From the NCBI GenBank assembly GCA_026002875.1, contig BPGE01000001.1, positions 62,001-126,000 of the forward strand: a DNA stretch of 64,000 nt, in the 5' to 3' direction. Each line of letters starts with the position of its first letter. Positions within the stretch are counted from its first letter, which is position 1. Under the pieces are notes generated by a model, which was not told the origin of the DNA, did not search any database, and worked only from the letters and a program-made list of their open reading frames with translations. A program made the translations under genes and the position numbers. This document shows positions 14,236-27,306 of the stretch, in pieces. The DNA comes from Bryobacteraceae bacterium (GTDB lineage Bacteria > Acidobacteriota > Terriglobia > Bryobacterales > Bryobacteraceae).

Positions 14236-14889
14236 TCATGGACGATCTTCCCGGACGGCGAACAGCGCCTCCGCTGCCCGCTCCGGGCTCAGGAACCGGG
14301 CCGTGTCTCCGTTCTGAAGAGGGCGGATATCGAACCATTGCAAGCCCGGCAGCTTCCATGAAGTGATCAGCAGCCGCCGGCGCCAGCCCAGCTGCGCGAA
14401 CAGCCGGTGCATCGGCTCGTTCCAGGGGACGCAGGCGCTGTGAAGCACCCGCCAGGATCCGCACGCTGCCACCGCTTCGTACATGACCCGGGCCAGTCCG
14501 TGGCGCCTCCATTCCCTGGTGACAAGGACTTTGGAAATGTAGCCGTGGCTTTCCGGTAGAGGCGCGTCGAGATCAAGGTAGTCGATGCGGGCGATGCGCC
14601 GCTCGAGCCAGAGGTAGGCGCAAATGCGGCCGCCGCGGATGATTGCGCAGAGGTCGGAATCGCCGCGTTCCAGCCATTGCCGCGCCTCGTCCAGACTCAA
14701 CCAGCCCCCGGGGTAGAGCAACTGCTCCAGATCGGCAGCCTGGAGCGCCCGGAACTCGAAGCCTTCGGGAAGAGCAGGGGCGGTCATTGTCTCCGGAGGC
14801 TGCAGGCAATAGAACACGAGACTCCGGCGATAGGCGGCAAGGCCCAGCTTTTGCAGCCGCCAGCGAAGCGTGCCCGACCAGCTGCTCAT
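14236..14889 (-). CDS. GNAT family N-acetyltransferase
   Basis: The roughly 217-residue protein has a GNAT core. YISKVLVTREWRRHGLARVMYEAV (about 118-141) is the acetyl-CoA P-loop strand-helix, and the following HSACVPWNEPMHRLFAQLGW supplies the late Asn and Phe positions of the fold. The substrate is unknown. The ATG at 14889 overlaps the upstream stop as ATGA. An ATG two codons earlier (14895) is equally in frame. Its position between an asparagine-synthase-like enzyme and a flippase suggests acetylation of a glycan or peptide precursor. Confidence 0.82.
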   Translation of the reverse strand: MSSWSGTLRWRLQKLGLAAYRRSLVFYCLQPPETMTAPALPEGFEFRALQAADLEQLLYPGGWLSLDEARQWLERGDSDLCAIIRGGRICAYLWLERRIARIDYLDLDAPLPESHGYISKVLVTREWRRHGLARVMYEAVAACGSWRVLHSACVPWNEPMHRLFAQLGWRRRLLITSWKLPGLQWFDIRPLQNGDTARFLSPERAAEALFAVREDRP

Positions 14890-16613
14890 GCGCATCCCCG
14901 CGAACCCGTTCCAGAGCGCCGTGCCGCCTCAGACAGTGCGAGCGCCGGCCGGAGCCAGTAAGCGAAATTGCGCAGACTCAGCCTGTGCGCCCAGGCGGCG
15001 GCGGCCAACAGGGGCACGTTGAGATAGTCCGCCGCCAGACGGCCCTGGCGCCATTCCGACAGCACACTCCGGCAGAATATGGCGGTTTTTCTGGAACTCC
15101 ATTCCTGATTCAGCTGCCATTGCGTTTTCAATGGCGGACCTTCGCGAGGCACCGGGCACGGCAGGCGTCCCGGGTAACTCTGCCACGGCACCCGGACGCA
15201 GTTTTGCGGAACCCTCTGCAGCACAACATGATAGAGCCGGTGAGACAGATAGGGATCGAGGGGCGGCGCGAGGCAGAGCACCGAATGCAGCACGCGGCGG
15301 TCATAGAAGGGCAGGGCCAGATCGAGTCCGATACCCGGCGCAACTTCGAAAAAGTCGTGCAGATGCCGGCGGAGGTCGTTCAGAATCACAAACAGGTGCA
15401 TCGCCTTTTGCGCGGGCGCATGGGCGTACTGGGACAGGGCCTCGCGCATCGCCATAGATGCGTGCTCCGCTGCGAGGGAGCGCCATTGCGGCCGGAACAA
15501 CCGGCAGGGCATTTCATGGCCATGGAGATACTCGCGGATGGCCGGCCCGATTTCACCGCGCCCGAGTTTTTCCATCACTCCGGGAGGCATCAGCAGAAAC
15601 CCCACGGTTTCGCCGCCGCCATCCCCGCTGAAAACGCGTCCGGGGGTCAATGGGGCGGCGGCAGCCGCCAGGGCCTGCGCCGTTGTTGTCCCGATGGTGC
15701 GCGGCGGGGCTTCGATCGGATATTCCGCTTCCTCCAGGGGCAGCCCGAGAAGCGAGGCGAAGCGCCTCGAGTATTCGTAATCCTCGCTTTCCGGAATGCG
15801 CAGGGTGGACAGGCGGAGCGGGACGTCCATTTCATGAAGCAGCGAAACGATCCACCGCGAGTCCAGTCCTCCGGACAGGAGCGCTTTTGCCGTCTCGCCC
15901 GCGCCCGGCGCACGGTCCCGCACGGCGGCTGAGACGGCTTCCACGCAGCCGTCCGCCGCCTCTTCGAGGGAAAGCGGAAGCAACTCGATTCGGGACCAGT
16001 CGAAATACCGGTCCCGGCGGACCTCTGACGGCGTCCAGAGGAGATATTCCGAGTCCCGCAACACGCGGATTTCTTCGTACAGAGTCCGGTCCGCAAGCGG
16101 GTAACAGAAGGCCTCCTGCTCCACAAACGCCGCGAAGTCGAACGTGCGGGGAAGAGAGGGCAGATGCAGCAGAATCTCCAGCATGGTGGAGAAGACCAGC
16201 GCGCCGCCGCATCGCGCGAAATACAGCGGACGTCCGCCCAGGCTGTCTGCCGCGAGCCAGAGCCTGCGTGCCGCGCCATCCCAGGCGAGGGCGGCAAAAG
16301 TACCGTTCGCCTGCGACAGATCCTGCGGGCGGTTGCTGCAGAGGCAATCCAGCAGACGCTCGAGCACTGCCGGCTGGTCTTCCTCAGGCGGGCCGCCTTC
16401 CCAAATGAGTTCGCCCGCCAGGGCAGCGAGTCCGCGCGGGGACTCGATCCGGGCGAATGCGCGCGGGCGGGAGGGACCGCACCACAGCGTCAGGAGCCCG
16501 GAGTCCATCCGGTCGAAGGGGAGATCGAGCCTCTCCAGCGCGGTTTTCAATTCAGACGGCAGGTTTCCGCTCTCGCCCGTGCCGCAGACACCGCAGAAAT
16601 ACACCATCCTCAT
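14886..16613 (-). CDS. Asparagine-synthase-like amidotransferase, N-terminal Cys displaced
   Basis: The 575-residue protein has an N-terminal Ntn-glutaminase-like domain (NGTFAALAWDGAARRLWLAA, then GGRPLYF) and a C-terminal ATP-pyrophosphatase domain with the PP-loop SGGLDS at 247-252. Family members activate a carboxyl with ATP and transfer nitrogen to it. A functional class II glutaminase needs Cys directly after the initiator Met. Here the first codons read MRMVYFCGVCG, so the candidate Cys is at position 5 or 7 and no start codon precedes it. It may therefore use ammonia or another amine. It is the first gene of a set with a GNAT enzyme and a flippase. Confidence 0.85.
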   Translation of the reverse strand: MRMVYFCGVCGTGESGNLPSELKTALERLDLPFDRMDSGLLTLWCGPSRPRAFARIESPRGLAALAGELIWEGGPPEEDQPAVLERLLDCLCSNRPQDLSQANGTFAALAWDGAARRLWLAADSLGGRPLYFARCGGALVFSTMLEILLHLPSLPRTFDFAAFVEQEAFCYPLADRTLYEEIRVLRDSEYLLWTPSEVRRDRYFDWSRIELLPLSLEEAADGCVEAVSAAVRDRAPGAGETAKALLSGGLDSRWIVSLLHEMDVPLRLSTLRIPESEDYEYSRRFASLLGLPLEEAEYPIEAPPRTIGTTTAQALAAAAAPLTPGRVFSGDGGGETVGFLLMPPGVMEKLGRGEIGPAIREYLHGHEMPCRLFRPQWRSLAAEHASMAMREALSQYAHAPAQKAMHLFVILNDLRRHLHDFFEVAPGIGLDLALPFYDRRVLHSVLCLAPPLDPYLSHRLYHVVLQRVPQNCVRVPWQSYPGRLPCPVPREGPPLKTQWQLNQEWSSRKTAIFCRSVLSEWRQGRLAADYLNVPLLAAAAWAHRLSLRNFAYWLRPALALSEAARRSGTGSRGCA

Positions 16614-16964
16614 GATGACACCGACTTGCCGGAACCGCACAGGAAGAGATCCTCCGTCCGGGGGCGGGAGCGCCGGAATCGGGGACTTTTGCCCTGCGTG
16701 AAGAATCCGCGTAACCTTTTCGCCTTGCGGCGCCGTCCTATAGGCAATCCCCGTTACGAGTGCGGGCGCCCTCACCCAAACACCCCAACTGGCGCCCGCA
16801 TACCTCCCTTGCTCGAAAGAAACCCGCTCAGCCCAGGCCGTCCCAGGGACCGTCCGCTCTCGCGGCTGCGAATCCCCAGGGGCGTTTGTTGCTGCTGATG
16901 GCCCGCAGGGTCCCAGGAGGGCTGGCGGGCTGCTGCCAATAGGCGTCGCCGGCAAGCGGCTGTT
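16614..16964. other. 351-base intergenic region
   Basis: No convincing gene is visible here on either strand. It separates the end of the peptidase-glycosidase fusion from the start of the asparagine-synthase-like gene, both on the minus strand, so it should hold the terminator of the first and the promoter of the second. It contains one clear inverted repeat (16761-16800). I see no good -35/-10 pair close to the start at 16613. Confidence 0.6.
16761..16800. repeat. Perfect 10-base inverted repeat, possible terminator or attenuator
   Basis: TGCGGGCGCC at 16761-16770 pairs perfectly with GGCGCCCGCA at 16791-16800 across a 20-base loop of mostly A and C. A stem this GC-rich should form in RNA. 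There is no T-run on either side, so it is not a classic intrinsic terminator. It lies about 165 bases past the fusion gene on the minus strand. Confidence 0.5.
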
Positions 16965-19900
16965 TCAAAGGGGCTGTGCGGTCGTGATCTCGTACCACGG
17001 CGTCTCTGCGCTCAGGCGGAAACGATGTCCCTGCGGCGTCCTCTCCACCGGGAGCGGCGCCATGCGTTTGCCGGCGCTGTCCAGCGGGTACACCGAAATG
17101 GCGCGGAACTTCGATTTCAGGGTCACTGTGGCGCCGACGTGCTCCATCACGACCGGTCCCGTCACGGAATAGGGCGATGACGGCCGGTCCGGGTTCACCG
17201 GCGCCAGGGTGAACCACGAGGGATCCTTCCGGTACGGGATCAATTTCTGTTGCTCGCCCAGCGTAAACCCCGGATTGGTGAGCAGCATCCGCGCCGAAGT
17301 TTCCAGCGGTTTTCCGTCCAGCGCCGTCAGGAGGATCGAGGCGAAGCCGCGGTCGGCTGAGGAAAGCGCCACCGTCATGGGGCCGGCGCTGGCCGGTTGT
17401 TCCAGAACGAAGCCGAAGACACCGGCCGCCTGCTCGGCGTGAATCAGGAAGATCTGGCGGAGCGGATCGTAGGAGATGTCGCCGTTTTCGGCCCGGTAGG
17501 GAGGCTGGGTTTTTTCAGGCCGGGGAGCGGTCTCCACGGTGGGGTCAACGGCCACGCGGCGCTGGAACGCGAGGTTCGGGTCGATGCCGAGATTTTCGAA
17601 AAACGCGGCCAGGCGGAACTGCATGCGCTCCGCCGTGGCCTTCTCGCGCAGCGAGCGGGGCAACGGAATGACATGCTCGCGCTCGGCCGGACGGACCAGC
17701 CCCTTGCGGAACAGGTAGCCTGCCTGTCCGAAGGCCGCGAGCTTCGTGAAATCCCCGTTGAGGTCGAACGCGGAGGGCGCATTGCGGCCCCAGTTGCGGC
17801 CGTGCTCGTAGGCAAAGTGCATCACGCCGTCCCAATCCTGGAAAGACGCGAAGGCGGCGAAGGTGGGGTCGATCTCGGCAGCCTGCCGGTTCGGGTAGGG
17901 CTGGTTGAATTCGCTCACCGTGTACGGCTTGTTGGCCTGCCGCGCGAAGGCCTTGTGCAGGTACTGCAGGTAACCGGAGCCAGCACCCGAGGTGTCGCGG
18001 ATGCGCCAGTCGGACGAGTCCCAGGGGCGGTTCGGGAAATTGTAGTGGTCGATGTAAAAGTGATCGTCGATGTAGTCGAGCCCGGCGTGCGTGTCGAAAT
18101 TCAGGGGGCCGCCGAATTCGACCTGCGTGCCGGTGACGGGGACGGACGGGCCGAGCCGCTCCCAGACGACGGCGGCGATGCGGTCCAGGTACGCCTTGTC
18201 CCGCGCGATCACTTCTTCGAGCGCGGCCTCGGGCCAGTATTTCCTGAGCGCGCCGGTCTGGAACGAGTACAGCAGCGAGCTTTCGTTGTTGATCTCGACC
18301 ATTGCCAGGACGGGGTCGTCCTTCAGGCGCAGGGCGTCGATGATTTTCCGGGCGAACTCGCACTGGAGCTCCACCATCCGGTCATCGAGGATGTGGAGGG
18401 GCTTCGACTGGTTCGGGACGGGGAAATCGAACGGGCCGACGGGATCGATGCCCGGACGGAACGTGTAGCCGACGTGCAGATTGAGGTTGACGTAGATGCC
18501 CTCTTCGCGGAAGGCGTCGAGCAGGATGCGAAGCCGGTCCACGGCGACGGGGTTGAGCGTGGGATAGGGATCTGTGGTGAGGATGGAGCGGGCGTTGGAA
18601 GGATCGGAGTCCGGGCTCGTGTCCATGTGATGAAGGCGGACCAGGTTAACGCCGAGGCGGCGCAGACGTTTGGCGATGCGCGCGGCGTCGGCGGGTTCGG
18701 GGAAGTTGGCGCCGAATGCGAGATTCACGCCCCAGAAACGGACGCGGCGGCCCAGAGCGTCCACGAAGCGGCCGTCCCGCACAGTGATGCGGTGATCGGG
18801 AGTCAGCGGCTGGTTCAGGAACGAGAAATCGACCGGACCGATGAGGTTGTCCTGATCGATGGCGACGCGGAACATGCGCGGTTCGGGCTCGGGGAAGAGG
18901 ACGCGCTGGAGAAATGCCAGCACATCGGCCGCCTCGTCGATGATTTTCGAGGTGGGCTTGCCGGCGCCGTGGCCGGCGGCGGTCTCGATGCGGATGAGGA
19001 TGGGCGCGTCTCCGCCCTGCGCTTCCTGGAGCGTGGCGGCGTATTTGAAGGAGTGCGCCGGGACGACGCGGTCGTCATGGTCCGCGGTGAGGACCAGCGT
19101 GGCCGGATACGCCGCGCCCGGCCGGATGTTGTGCAGCGGCGAGTAGCGGTAGAGGACCTGGAATTCCTCCGGGTCTTTCGGCGAGCCGTACTCGCTGGCC
19201 CACGCGTGGCCGATGGTGAAGCGGTCGAACCGCAGCATGTCCATGACGCCCACCGCCGGGAGCGCCGCGCCGAACAGGTCCGGCCGCTGGTTGAGCACGG
19301 CGCCGACGAGCAGGCCGCCGTTGGAGCCGCCGCGGATGGCGAGCTTCTTCGCGCTGGTGTACTGGCGGCGGATGAGGTGCTCCGCGGCGGCGATGAAGTC
19401 ATCAAACACGTTCTGCTTGTTCTGTTTCATTCCCGCGCGGTGCCAGTCTTCGCCGTACTCTCCGCCGCCGCGCAGATTGGCCGAGGCGTAGACGCCGCCG
19501 CGCTCGAGCCATGCCAGCGTCGACACGCTGAATGAAGGAGTGACGGAGATGTTGAAGCCGCCGTAGCCGTACAGGATGGCGGGGTGCGAGCCGTCGAGTT
19601 TCAGCCCCTTGCGGGCGGTGATGTACAGCGGCACGCGCGTGCCGTCTTTGCTGACGGCGAACTCCTGCCGCGTTTCGTACTTCGAGGGGTCGAATGGCAG
19701 CTTCAGCGGGAACAGCGGGCTGCAGGCTCCCTCCGCGCAGCGGAAGAGCGTCTCGGGCGTCATGAAGTTCGAGACGGAGAAGACGGTGGAGGAGTCTTCC
19801 GCCAGCGTGAGGGAAGAGTTCTGCGCCAGAGGAACGGTGCGCGGCGGACCGCCGGAGAGCGAAGCGATCTTGACGAGCCCGGAGACGTCATGCATGTAGT

Positions 19901-20969
19901 TCAGGACAAGCTGGTCGCCGGCGAGGCGCGCCTGGCGCAGCGTGTCTTCCGCCTCAGGAACCACTGTCCTCCAGTTTGCGGGCGCGGGGTTTGCGAGGTC
20001 GATCTCGATGATGCGGTAGCGCGGGGCGCCGTCGTTGGTGAGCAGCAGAATGCGCGAGCCGCGGCTCCCGACATAGCGGTAGGAGTAGCGGAACTCCCCG
20101 ATGACGGGCTTCGGGGCGCGCTCGGGCGACTGGAGGTCGATGAAGTGAATCAGCCGTTCAATGGCCGTGCTGCCTGCGGTTTCGAGGATGAGGTAGCGCC
20201 CGTCCGCGGTGAGGTGGGGAGTGAACATGTAGCGCGGATGGTCCGGAGTGCGGTAGGAGACCGTGTCCTCCGATTGGGGCGTGCCGATGCGGTGATAGCA
20301 GAGCGTGAAATTCTCGTTGACCGCCTGCAGCGCCGCGCCCGGCTGGGGTTCCGGGTAACGGCCATACCAGAAGCCTTCTCCTCTGGCGTCCCATTCCGCA
20401 TGGCTGAATTTGGACCACTCGAGCATGTCCGGCAGATCCTTCGCCGTGGCTACATCGCGGACGCGCCAGGTGACCCAGTCCGAACCGGAGCGGGAAACGG
20501 CGTAGGCGAGCAGGCGGCCATCGCGCGAGATCGAGAACGTGTTGACGGAAGCCGTGCCGTCGGGCGAAAGCGTGTTGGCGTCCAGCAGCACGCGGTCTTT
20601 GCCGGCTTCGCGCACGTAGAGCACCGGCTGGTTCTGGAGCCCCGACTGCCGCAGGAAGAATGTGCGCGGACCGCGGACGAAATACCCTGCAACAGCACTG
20701 CCGGCGCGGCTCACCGTGGGATAGCGGTCGTACTGATAGAGCTTTTCGAGCAGCGCACGGATGGCGGGGCGCTGCGGAATGCGCGCGAGAAACGCCTGCG
20801 TGCGCGCATTCTGCGCCTGGATCCAGGCGCGCGTTTCGGCGGAGTCCGGATCTTCGAGCCAGCGGAAGTTCTCCGTGACGGAGACGCCATGAAACACCTC
20901 TGTCGAAGGCCTGGGCGTGTTCTGCGCCAGGAGCGGCAGGCAGCCGAGAATCCAGACAAGCTTGCGCAT
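16965..20969 (-). CDS. Secreted fusion: prolyl oligopeptidase (S9A) plus clan GH-A glycoside hydrolase
   Basis: One uninterrupted frame of 1334 residues. A short Sec signal ([16 protein letters not shown]) leads into a full prolyl oligopeptidase: beta-propeller to about 430, then the alpha/beta hydrolase with Ser549 (RGGSNGG), Asp in ADHDDRVVP (629-637) and His667 (GHGAGKP). That domain ends near residue 692. From about 699 a cellulase-like TIM barrel begins ([20 protein letters not shown]). Its acid/base is Glu896 (EINNES) and its nucleophile candidate Glu1020 (TVSEFNQP). A beta-rich tail follows. The normal S9A length is about 700, so this is a true two-enzyme chain or an unusual fusion in the assembly. 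ATG 20969 begins the signal peptide. Confidence 0.85.
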
Positions 20970-20981: not shown

Positions 20982-21039
20982 ACGCCCGGCCCGGCAGGCG
21001 GGTCCGGGGTCGCCTACCATGGAGGTTTCAGGTGGCCTC

Positions 21040-22077
21040 ATGCTCGATCTGCGCACGCACCCGCACCGCCGCTACAATCCGCTCACGGGCGAGTGGCTTC
21101 TGGTAAGCCCGCACCGCACGCAGCGTCCCTGGCAGGGGCAGGTGGAGAAGCTGCCGCCGGAGACGCGGCCCGCCTACGATCCTGCATGCTATCTCTGCCC
21201 GGGCAATGCACGGGCCGGAGGACACCGCAACCCGCAGTACGAAAAAACATTCGTTTTCACAAATGATTTTTCGGCCCTGCTTGCGGAATCACCGGAGGGA
21301 GATGCTTCCGCCCATGGACTGTTGCGCGCCGAGGGGGTCCGCGGCGTCTGCCGGGTCATCTGCTTCTCTCCGCGCCACGATCTGACGGTGGCGGAGATGG
21401 AGACGGCGGACGTTGCCGCCGTGGTGGAGACGTGGGTGGAGGAGTTCGAATCGCTGATGCGCGAGCCGTTCATCCGCTACGTGCAGATCTTCGAGAACCG
21501 CGGCGAGATGATGGGCTGCTCGAATCCGCATCCGCACTGTCAGATCTGGGCCAGCAGCGTCGTGCCGGATGAAGTGGCGCGGGAAGAGGCCATGCAGACG
21601 GAGTACTGGCGCGCGCACGGCCGGACGCTGCTCGGAGATTATCTGGAGCTTGAGATCGGGCTGGGCGAGAGGATCGTGTGCATGAACGACCATTTCGCCG
21701 CGCTCGTGCCATGGTGGGCTGTGTGGCCGTTCGAGACGATGATCGTCAGCCGCCGGGCGGCGACGGGGATCGACGAGCTGTCGGGCGAAGAGCGCGCCGG
21801 GCTGGCGGACATCCTCAAGCGGATCACGACCCGCTACGACAACCTGTTCGAGATTTCGTTCCCCTACTCGTTCGGCTTCCATCAGCGCACGGCGGGAGAG
21901 CGCAACCCGGCATGGCATCTGCACGCGCATTTCTTTCCGCCGCTGCTTCGTTCGGCGACGGTGAGGAAGTTTCTGGTCGGCTACGAAATGCTGGCCATGC
22001 CGCAGCGGGACATCACGGCGGAGGCGGCGGCGGCGCGGCTGCGCGAACAGAGCGAAGTGCACTACCGGAAGCGCTGA
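21040..22077 (+). CDS. galT: Galactose-1-phosphate uridylyltransferase
   Basis: The 345-residue enzyme exchanges UMP between UDP-glucose and galactose-1-phosphate in the Leloir pathway. It has the opening [21 protein letters not shown], a zinc-type CYLC pair, the catalytic [14 protein letters not shown] with the nucleophilic His in His-Pro-His, and a late [16 protein letters not shown] 21040 is preceded at short spacing by GGTGG. An in-frame ATG at 21019 would add 7 residues. It is divergent from the fusion gene, about 70 bases apart. No galK or galE lies nearby. Confidence 0.93.
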
Positions 22078-25499: not shown

Positions 25500-25518
25500 G
25501 GGCGGGTTGGAGCCATCC

Positions 25519-27306
25519 ATGAACCGTTCCCTTGTCCTTGCGGCCATTCTCGCGGCCACCGGCTGCCGCACCGCGCCCACCGTGGAGGAGGCGCGCCAGT
25601 TTCTCGAAAGAGCGGAGAGCGAGCTGCTGCAGCTCTCGAACGAGGCATCGCAGGCGGCGTGGGTGCAGTCGACTTACATCACGCTCGACACGGAGGCGCT
25701 GGCGGCGAAGGCCAACGAGCGCCTGATTTCGGCCAGCGTCCGCCTGGCCAAGGAAGCGGCGAAATACGAGAAAGCGTCTCTGCCCGAAGATCTGCAGCGG
25801 AAGCTCAAACTGCTGAAGCTGGCCATCACGCTGCCTGCGCCGTCGGATCCTGCCGAAGCCGCCGAGATGACGAAGCTGGCGGCGGGGCTGGAGTCCGCGT
25901 ACGGCAAGGGCAAATACTGTCCCGGCGGAGACGAGAAGAAGTGCCTGAACATCGATGAAATCACGCGGATCATGGCGACGAGCCGCGATCCGGAACAGCT
26001 GCTGGAAGTGTGGCAGGGCTGGCACTCGATTGCGCCGCCCATGAAGAAGGATTTCGCGCGCGTGGTGGAGATCGCCAACAAAGGCGCGCGCGAGCTGGGG
26101 TTTGCCGACACAGGCGCGCTGTGGCGCAGCGGGTACGACATGCCGCCCGAGGAGTTCTCGCGCGAGCTGGACCGCCTGTGGGAACAGGTGAAGCCGCTGT
26201 ATGAACAGCTCCACGCCTACGTCCGATGGAAGCTGCGCGAGAAGTACGGTGCGTCCGCCGTGCCTGAAAACGGTCCGATTCCGGCGCACCTGCTCGGCAA
26301 CATCTGGGCGCAGCAGTGGGACAACCTGTATCCGGAACTGGCGCCGAAGGGGGCTGATCCGGGCTACGACCTGACTGCAATCCTCAAGCGGCGCAACACG
26401 ACGCCCGTGGACATGGTGAAGTACGGCGAGCGGTTCTTTACGTCGCTCAGCTTCGAGCCGCTGCCGCCGACGTTCTGGGAGCGCTCGATGTTCACGCGCC
26501 CGCGCGACCGCGACGTTGTCTGCCACGCCTCGGCGTGGGACGTGGACAACGTGGACGACCTGCGCATCAAAATGTGCATCGAGATCAACGCCGACGACTT
26601 CAACGTGATCCACCACGAGCTGGGCCACAACTTTTACCAGCGTGCTTACAACCGGCAGCCGTTCCTGTTCCGCGCGGGCGCCAATGACGGCTTCCACGAA
26701 GCCGTGGGCGACACGATCGCGCTGTCGATCACGCCGGAGTATCTCGTGAAGATCGGGCTGCTGGACCGCGCTCCGGACGCGAGCAAGGATCTGGGGCTGC
26801 TGATGGCGCGCGCGCTGGACAAGGTCGCGTTCCTGCCCTTCGGGCTGCTGATCGACCAGTGGCGGTGGAAGGTGTTTTCGGGAGAGGTGAAGCCGGAGCA
26901 GTACAACCGCGCCTGGTGGGAGCTGCGGCGGAAGTATCAGGGCGTGGCTCCGGCGAGTGAACGGGGAGAAGAGTTCTTCGATGCGGGCGCCAAGTACCAC
27001 GTGCCGGCCAACGTGCCCTACACGCGGTATTTCCTGGCGCACATTCTTCAGTTCCAGTTCCACAAGGCGCTGAGCGATGCGGCGGGCTGCACGGGTCCCG
27101 TCCACCGCTGCTCGATTTACGACAACAAAGAAGCCGGGCGACGGCTGAAAGAGATGCTTGAGATGGGCGCGAGCCGTCCGTGGCAGGAAGCGCTCGAGAA
27201 GGTCACCGGCACGCGGCAGATGGACGCGGGGGCGATCCGGGCTTACTTCAAGCCGCTGGAAGACTGGCTGACTGAACAGAACAAGGGCAAGCCGGTGGGC
27301 TGGTAG
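25519..27306 (+). CDS. M2 family (ACE-like) zinc peptidase, lipoprotein
   Basis: The 595-residue protein starts with a lipoprotein signal (MNRSLVLAAILAATGC, lipid on Cys16). The zinc site is His366-Glu367-x-x-His370 (HHELGH), with the third ligand Glu394 in GFHEAVGD, the M2 HEXXH plus HEXXXD arrangement. M2 peptidases are dipeptidyl carboxypeptidases related to angiotensin-converting enzyme, and the length matches a single ACE domain. It probably trims peptides at the outer or periplasmic membrane face. ATG 25519 has GGTTGGAG upstream. TTG 25507 would add four residues. Confidence 0.92.
   Translation: MNRSLVLAAILAATGCRTAPTVEEARQFLERAESELLQLSNEASQAAWVQSTYITLDTEALAAKANERLISASVRLAKEAAKYEKASLPEDLQRKLKLLKLAITLPAPSDPAEAAEMTKLAAGLESAYGKGKYCPGGDEKKCLNIDEITRIMATSRDPEQLLEVWQGWHSIAPPMKKDFARVVEIANKGARELGFADTGALWRSGYDMPPEEFSRELDRLWEQVKPLYEQLHAYVRWKLREKYGASAVPENGPIPAHLLGNIWAQQWDNLYPELAPKGADPGYDLTAILKRRNTTPVDMVKYGERFFTSLSFEPLPPTFWERSMFTRPRDRDVVCHASAWDVDNVDDLRIKMCIEINADDFNVIHHELGHNFYQRAYNRQPFLFRAGANDGFHEAVGDTIALSITPEYLVKIGLLDRAPDASKDLGLLMARALDKVAFLPFGLLIDQWRWKVFSGEVKPEQYNRAWWELRRKYQGVAPASERGEEFFDAGAKYHVPANVPYTRYFLAHILQFQFHKALSDAAGCTGPVHRCSIYDNKEAGRRLKEMLEMGASRPWQEALEKVTGTRQMDAGAIRAYFKPLEDWLTEQNKGKPVGW

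Follow-up and report, generated by a model that had tools for sequence, protein, structure and literature searches.

Prolyl oligopeptidases (POPs) are given in PMC4522959 as proteins of about 700 residues in most species, whose homologues have 105 bacterial domain architectures. The main text of that paper has the string 'glycos' in its references alone and 'cellulase' nowhere, and names acetyl xylan and sulfatase domains in a legend; its Additional file 6 might include a glycosidase partner. Among the titles and abstract starts listed by term searches of open-licence PMC text, none describes a POP fused to a glycoside hydrolase (GH). Here, we describe such a gene in a 64,000-nucleotide stretch (the window) of a Bryobacteraceae genome (GCA_026002875.1, contig BPGE01000001.1, positions 62,001 to 126,000). 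It encodes a POP followed in the same chain by a GH, two known kinds of enzyme in a new domain combination, and is shared by all five genomes of the genus examined.

The gene (16965-20969, minus strand) is a single unbroken frame of 1334 residues, with its ATG at 20969 and a stop ending at 16965. An initial annotation, made from the letters of the window, had read it as a genuine fusion with both catalytic sets and a clean junction, and the same frame in five of five congeneric genomes bears this out. The frame is stop-free in each, at 80-88% identity, and the P-E-P start of the linker, the linker length and Met699 are constant throughout. That assembly or sequencing had joined two genes is scarcely credible: the five genomes share the junction at synonymous divergences (dS) of about 0.6-1.4, two of them (the window's genome, one 4.86 Mb contig, and G002) are single contigs, and we found no point in favour of such a join. 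The ratio of nonsynonymous to synonymous divergence (dN/dS) between genus genomes lies at 0.09-0.16 in the POP half, 0.06-0.13 in the GH barrel and 0.10-0.25 in the C-terminal part, and these low values indicate purifying selection on both halves. The initial annotation had also held that relatives with two separate genes, and a signal peptide on the glycosidase, would speak against the fusion. This is the arrangement outside the genus, in the relatives examined, and not inside it; because all five congeners are fused, the separate genes of outside relatives date the fusion and do not refute it.

The first half is an S9A POP. Pfam places Peptidase_S9_N (PF02897) at residues 23-411 (E 1.4e-99, 334.1 bits, cut-off 24) and Peptidase_S9 (PF00326) at residues 478-691 (E 1.4e-64, 218 bits, cut-off 22.6), and in phmmer the solved prolyl endopeptidase 3iuj matches residues 24-687 (E 4.5e-186). 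The Ser549/Asp632/His667 triad is invariant in the five fused proteins and aligned with that of 3iuj; Ser549 and His667 had been named before, with the Asp left open within 629-637, and we take the first Asp of HDDRVVP to be the catalytic one from the numbering of porcine POP. W590 and R634, equally invariant and matched to a Trp and an Arg of 3iuj, are presumably the proline-pocket Trp and the substrate-binding Arg (W595 and R643 of porcine POP). The half shares with 3iuj the propeller and the alpha/beta-hydrolase, with triad and motifs conserved, but the chain does not stop near 700 residues and runs on into a 640-residue glycosidase. The stand-alone S9A length of about 700 residues is thus departed from in five of five genomes (1334 residues, fused), a difference of architecture and not of domain definition. 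The next POP-like match in the window's own genome reaches just E 1.2e-13, so the fused gene seems to be the sole classical POP of that genome. S9A enzymes accept short peptides only, the propeller gating the active site, and the POP half would be expected to cut short peptides after proline.

The second half is supported as GH5-like and of clan GH-A, yet the window protein is no member of family GH5 by the Pfam cut-off. Against the Pfam Cellulase model of GH5 (PF00150, cut-off 23.5) the whole chain scores 13.1 bits and the GH half 14.5 bits; one standalone relative (G023:C306) just passes, at 23.7 bits. GH42 (PF02449) gave no match to the window protein at E <= 1, and seven of 19 members of the GH-half alignment match it weakly (best E 2.8e-4). 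No family exceeded threshold for the GH half in Pfam, NCBIfam or PHROGs, and a sequence-profile search of the PDB with this half returned nothing significant. The relationship emerges from profile-profile comparison, with a GH-half profile of 19 sequences (five fused and 14 standalone). Compared with 16 GH5 proteins of related genomes it matched at a probability of 95.4% (P 1.9e-8) across residues 36-329 of the half, placing Glu896 on the acid/base of the Asn-Glu ('NE') pair and Glu1020 on the nucleophile; compared with 17 GH42 proteins it gave 86.5% (P 4.6e-6), both Glu again in register. Controls – the GH half against POP, POP against GH5 and GH42, and ten column-shuffled GH5 alignments – stayed at or below 0.9%.

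A catalytic Glu pair after strands 4 and 7, with an Asn before the acid/base, is the hallmark of clan GH-A. N895-E896 and E1020 are invariant in 19 of 19 aligned GH halves, and Glu896 and Glu1020 in all five fused proteins; being in register with the GH5 profile, and with that of GH42, these residues support the catalytic assignments first proposed for the glycosidase. In two weak AlphaFold2 models of the GH half, built from six sequences, beta/alpha repeats are present and Glu896 lies just after the fourth barrel strand; strand 7 is not visible. The beta/alpha repeats of the second model fall in its first half, where 10-residue means of the predicted local distance difference test (pLDDT) run from 46 to 89, and values in its second half are below 50. 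Foldseek on this model lists mostly GH5-type proteins among its top ten hits (the GH5 membership of some is our assumption), with template-modelling (TM) scores of about 0.3-0.4. The half thus resembles GH5 in its profile and in the register of both catalytic Glu, and differs in its sub-threshold Pfam score, its lack of a significant PDB match and its own C-terminal beta-rich region. It is predicted to be a retaining hydrolase acting on some beta-linked sugar. A CBM_4_9 module was matched in four of the 19 aligned members; long members carry an insert there, which the fused proteins lack. All five genus genomes also hold a distant standalone GH paralogue of about 27% identity (G000:C1:1316299-1318944, L076), with a signal-peptide-like start and an insert at the site where some relatives hold the CBM_4_9 module.

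The two halves are separated by a linker of about seven residues, FPEPEPR, and the coordinates, the junction (POP to about residue 691, GH from about 699) and the lack of an internal signal peptide are as first described. The fused GH keeps the mature start of its standalone relatives: ...AAQTGAPRAAMYPVSIDQD in standalone L040 corresponds to ...FPEPAAKMYPVRIDQD in fused G002, and the L040 protein reads ...AAMYPVSIDQD directly after its signal peptide. A signal-peptide-like start is present in 13 of 15 standalone GH loci, the start not being visible in the other two, and the standalone GHs of G196 and G248 also begin with such a stretch. The N-terminus of the fused chain, by eye and hydropathy, is likewise signal-peptide-like, as had been noted, with similar ends in four congeners. 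The fused protein is most likely exported through this one N-terminal signal peptide and would be periplasmic.

Two other fates of the chain bear on this junction. It could be a pre-protein, exported whole and then cut at FPEPEPR into two free enzymes; the short linker shows the greatest dN across the two subclades (0.21-0.32), and each partner occurs alone elsewhere, but the linker length and P-E-P start are kept in five of five genomes. Proline-rich linkers usually resist proteases, and to our knowledge FPEPEPR contains no recognised protease site. We regard such processing as improbable. Alternatively, an internal start at Met699, invariant in five of five, could yield a second, signal-less cytoplasmic GH. 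No ribosome-binding site was seen by eye in the codons before Met699 in any of the five, and because this Met also lies within the mature domain of the standalone L040 protein, it looks inherited and not a start; we consider this a very faint prospect.

The initial annotation had called for a search for the same two-domain order, and among the genomes searched it was found in this genus only. The sets comprised 257 genomes of the order, 399 drawn from the class and 396 drawn from the phylum, with at most two or three candidates scored per genome. In the order, the GH half is present at E <= 1e-20 in 69 of 257 genomes and lies in a POP frame in the five of the genus only, the longest other GH frame having 1128 residues; POP is present at E <= 1e-100 in 163 of 257, and among the matches listed only the same five reach fused length. 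Neither the class search (31 genomes with GH) nor the phylum search (six with GH) gave a further POP-GH fusion. Long stop-to-stop POP frames occur in G066 (1090 residues), G157 (1004) and G119 (1025), and the locus of G119, the one of the three inspected, contained no GH. One other very long frame, in G681, was rejected; it has extra C-terminal sequence and its translation contains no POP. Outside the genus, POP and GH were found together in none of 21 POP loci and 19 GH loci, and the flanks of the standalone GH loci contained no POP in those examined. No relative was found in viral contigs or PHROGs, and no plasmid record covers 80% of the fused protein; two Paraburkholderia plasmid records carry a GH relative of 35% identity. 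In one of these (NZ_AP024959.1, L295, 4688-6817) the relative is annotated as a hypothetical protein and its neighbours are dTDP-rhamnose and lipopolysaccharide genes, a possible hint to the substrate of the GH.

The nearest separate relatives of the two halves share a chromosomal position. The nearest standalone POP (G009, L041) is flanked immediately by a class I fumarase gene (assigned by Pfam) on one side and tRNA-Phe on the other, and the nearest standalone GHs, those of G235, G015 and G196 from two genera, occupy the same slot in the order fumarase, GH, tRNA-Phe; the four slot relatives thus span three genera, with POP in one genome and GH in three. In a tree of 36 GH rows the fused GH groups with G235, G015 and G196 at 100/100, and in a tree of 32 of 33 POP loci the fused POP groups with G009 at 94/91. 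The three GHs (L040, L068 and L142, respectively) are 58-62% identical over the GH half and have the same mature N-terminus as the fused protein, but are separate genes with their own signal-peptide-like start; the POP of G009 is 58% identical, nearest in the tree and has a signal-peptide-like start, but unlike the fused POP it ends about six residues past the catalytic domain. That nearest relatives of both halves share the slot suggests an ancestral pair of neighbouring POP and GH genes, fused by deletion.

Fumarase was matched in 190 of 257 genomes, and the downstream side of 60 further fumarase genes was examined. tRNA-Phe follows directly in 25, other genes come first in six, and 29 have no tRNA-Phe, three of these being on short stretches (0.5-2 kb); neither POP nor GH was found in the examined stretches of the 60. 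In a separate set of 21 fumarase loci, six have tRNA-Phe directly after (one, G005, is also among the 60). Other genes in the slot are a MacB/FtsX-type permease (one of three similar loci scanned), DUF1800, a 2-hydroxyacid dehydrogenase and one without a Pfam match. Within the genus, a long distance separates fumarase from tRNA-Phe in the two single-contig genomes, G003 and G004 have them on different contigs, and no full-length tRNA-Phe match was found in G001. The slot coordinates are 419-4170 in L041, 4418-8025 in L040, 5383-9091 in L142 and 1034-4742 in L068, with further cases in L237, L249, L272 and L286; the fumarase-tRNA-Phe gap in this family, often empty and with varied cargo in some genera, resembles a small insertion hotspot.

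Taken together, the account we find reasonably probable is that of a genuine exported two-enzyme protein with independent sites and a scavenging role, fused in the genus ancestor from slot neighbours; its export and location, activities and their independence, order of events and substrates are inferred. In the genus ancestor, POP and GH would have been neighbours in the order fumarase-POP-GH-tRNA-Phe, and an in-frame deletion would have taken out the stop codon of POP together with the signal peptide of GH. The fused gene would then have come to the galT/altronate-dehydratase locus, and the slot of the relatives would have been reduced to one gene or the other, POP or GH. The two active sites most likely work independently, and the halves most likely stay joined so as to be expressed and exported as one, in the scavenging of peptides and glycans (or glycopeptides). 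Several observations weigh against parts of this account. POP and GH as separate adjacent genes were found in no genome and unrelated genes can occupy the slot as well, which leaves the tandem ancestor a reconstruction. The POP grouping consists of one genome, with 94/91 below the starred level of the tree tool, and two of the three slot GHs come from one genus. The export signal was judged by eye and hydropathy alone, the mean pLDDT of the two GH models is 54 and 53, and further down the Foldseek list come barrels outside GH-A, such as GH20, glycogen branching enzymes and histamine dehydrogenase.

The surroundings of the fused gene (Table 1) bear on its substrate. galT, an altronate/galactarate dehydratase, a GntP permease and an M2 (angiotensin-converting-enzyme type) peptidase lie within about 6.5 kb in five of five genomes and suggest galactose or sugar acids, along with peptides. 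The initial annotation had proposed glycopeptides or proline-rich plant glycoproteins such as extensins and arabinogalactan proteins, and saw a nearby GH127 arabinofuranosidase as fitting the plant glycoproteins. GH127 was seen near the fused gene in two of five genomes, the window's and G003; in G001 and G002 the flanks lack it to about 7 kb each way, and in G004 the examined stretch breaks off within the flippase gene that stands before GH127 in the window. As GH127 is not conserved, and the neighbours present in all five are not specific to plant glycoproteins, a plant cell-wall glycoprotein substrate is unsupported; intact extensins and arabinogalactan proteins are moreover unlikely substrates because the S9A propeller admits short peptides only. 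Galactose- or uronate-containing glycans and short peptides are our guess. By the same restriction of POP to short peptides, any substrate common to both sites would be a small glycopeptide.

The two sites might be coupled on one substrate: POP could cut short glycopeptides after proline once the GH has removed sugar from them, or the two steps could run in the opposite order. Both halves stay in one chain across the genus, the M2 peptidase and galactose/sugar-acid genes are neighbours in all five genomes, and Foldseek of the weak model lists endoglycoceramidase and GH5_18, which act on glycan cores, among its best hits. These fold hits come from a low-confidence model with TM scores of about 0.3-0.4 and unrelated barrels also listed, however; there is no sign of a shared substrate or channel, and the halves were not found together outside the genus. 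We view such coupling as unlikely. Its more specific form, a single-chain glycopeptide processor in which the peptidase and a GH5-like glycosidase of undefined family, derived from slot-sharing genes, act on the same short glycopeptides, is rather unlikely.

Two further observations concern the locus. Directly downstream (14886-16955) lies a gene for an asparagine-synthetase-like protein with a weak amidotransferase domain, adjoining GNAT and flippase genes; it is only 55% identical in G004, and the stretches examined in G001, G002 and G003 did not contain it, which makes this side of the locus variable. A public record with the label Arcobacter sp. (DYJN01000002.1, L038) carries the fused gene at 85% identity with the same neighbours, and its organism label looks wrong.

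Table 1. Features of the fused POP-GH gene and two of its neighbours, in window positions.
Feature	Position	Strand	Evidence
Whole fused gene, POP then GH	16965..20969	-	Same frame in 5/5 genus genomes
Sec-type signal peptide, residues 1-16, putative cleavage site	20922..20969	-	By eye and hydropathy; LPLAAQ/LPVAAQ ends in four congeners
S9A beta-propeller region, residues 23-411 (PF02897)	19737..20903	-	Pfam
S9 catalytic alpha/beta-hydrolase, residues 478-691 (PF00326)	18897..19538	-	Pfam
Ser549 codon, nucleophile in GGSNGG	19323..19325	-	Congener alignment and 3iuj alignment
Asp632 codon, in HDDRVVP	19074..19076	-	Congener alignment and 3iuj alignment
His667 codon, in AGHGAG	18969..18971	-	Congener alignment and 3iuj alignment
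Junction, residues 692-702	18864..18896	-	POP ends at about 691, mature GH starts at about 699
GH5-like clan GH-A catalytic domain, residues 703-1095, approximate borders	17685..18863	-	Profile comparison; weak structure models
Glu896 codon, predicted acid/base, in VEINNE	18282..18284	-	Invariant in 19/19; aligns with NE of GH5 and GH42
Glu1020 codon, predicted nucleophile, in TVSEFN	17910..17912	-	Invariant in 19/19; aligns with GH5 and GH42 nucleophile
C-terminal beta-rich region of GH half, residues 1096-1334	16968..17684	-	Also in standalone relatives; mostly strands in weak model
galT (GalP_UDP_transf, Pfam), divergent, start codons about 50 bp apart	21019..22077	+	Neighbour in 5/5 by synteny
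M2 (angiotensin-converting-enzyme type) peptidase beside GntP permease	25507-27306		Near fused gene in 5/5

Peptide bonds and sugar bonds are normally cut by separate proteins. The origin of this fusion is unusually readable because the nearest separate relatives of both halves still share a slot in other genera. Pfam has no family dedicated to the GH group, which occurs in 69 of the order's 257 genomes, and the activity of this group would itself be new information. Because the fusion persists genus-wide with neither site lost, the question of whether some bacteria handle short glycopeptides as a single substrate can be tested directly.

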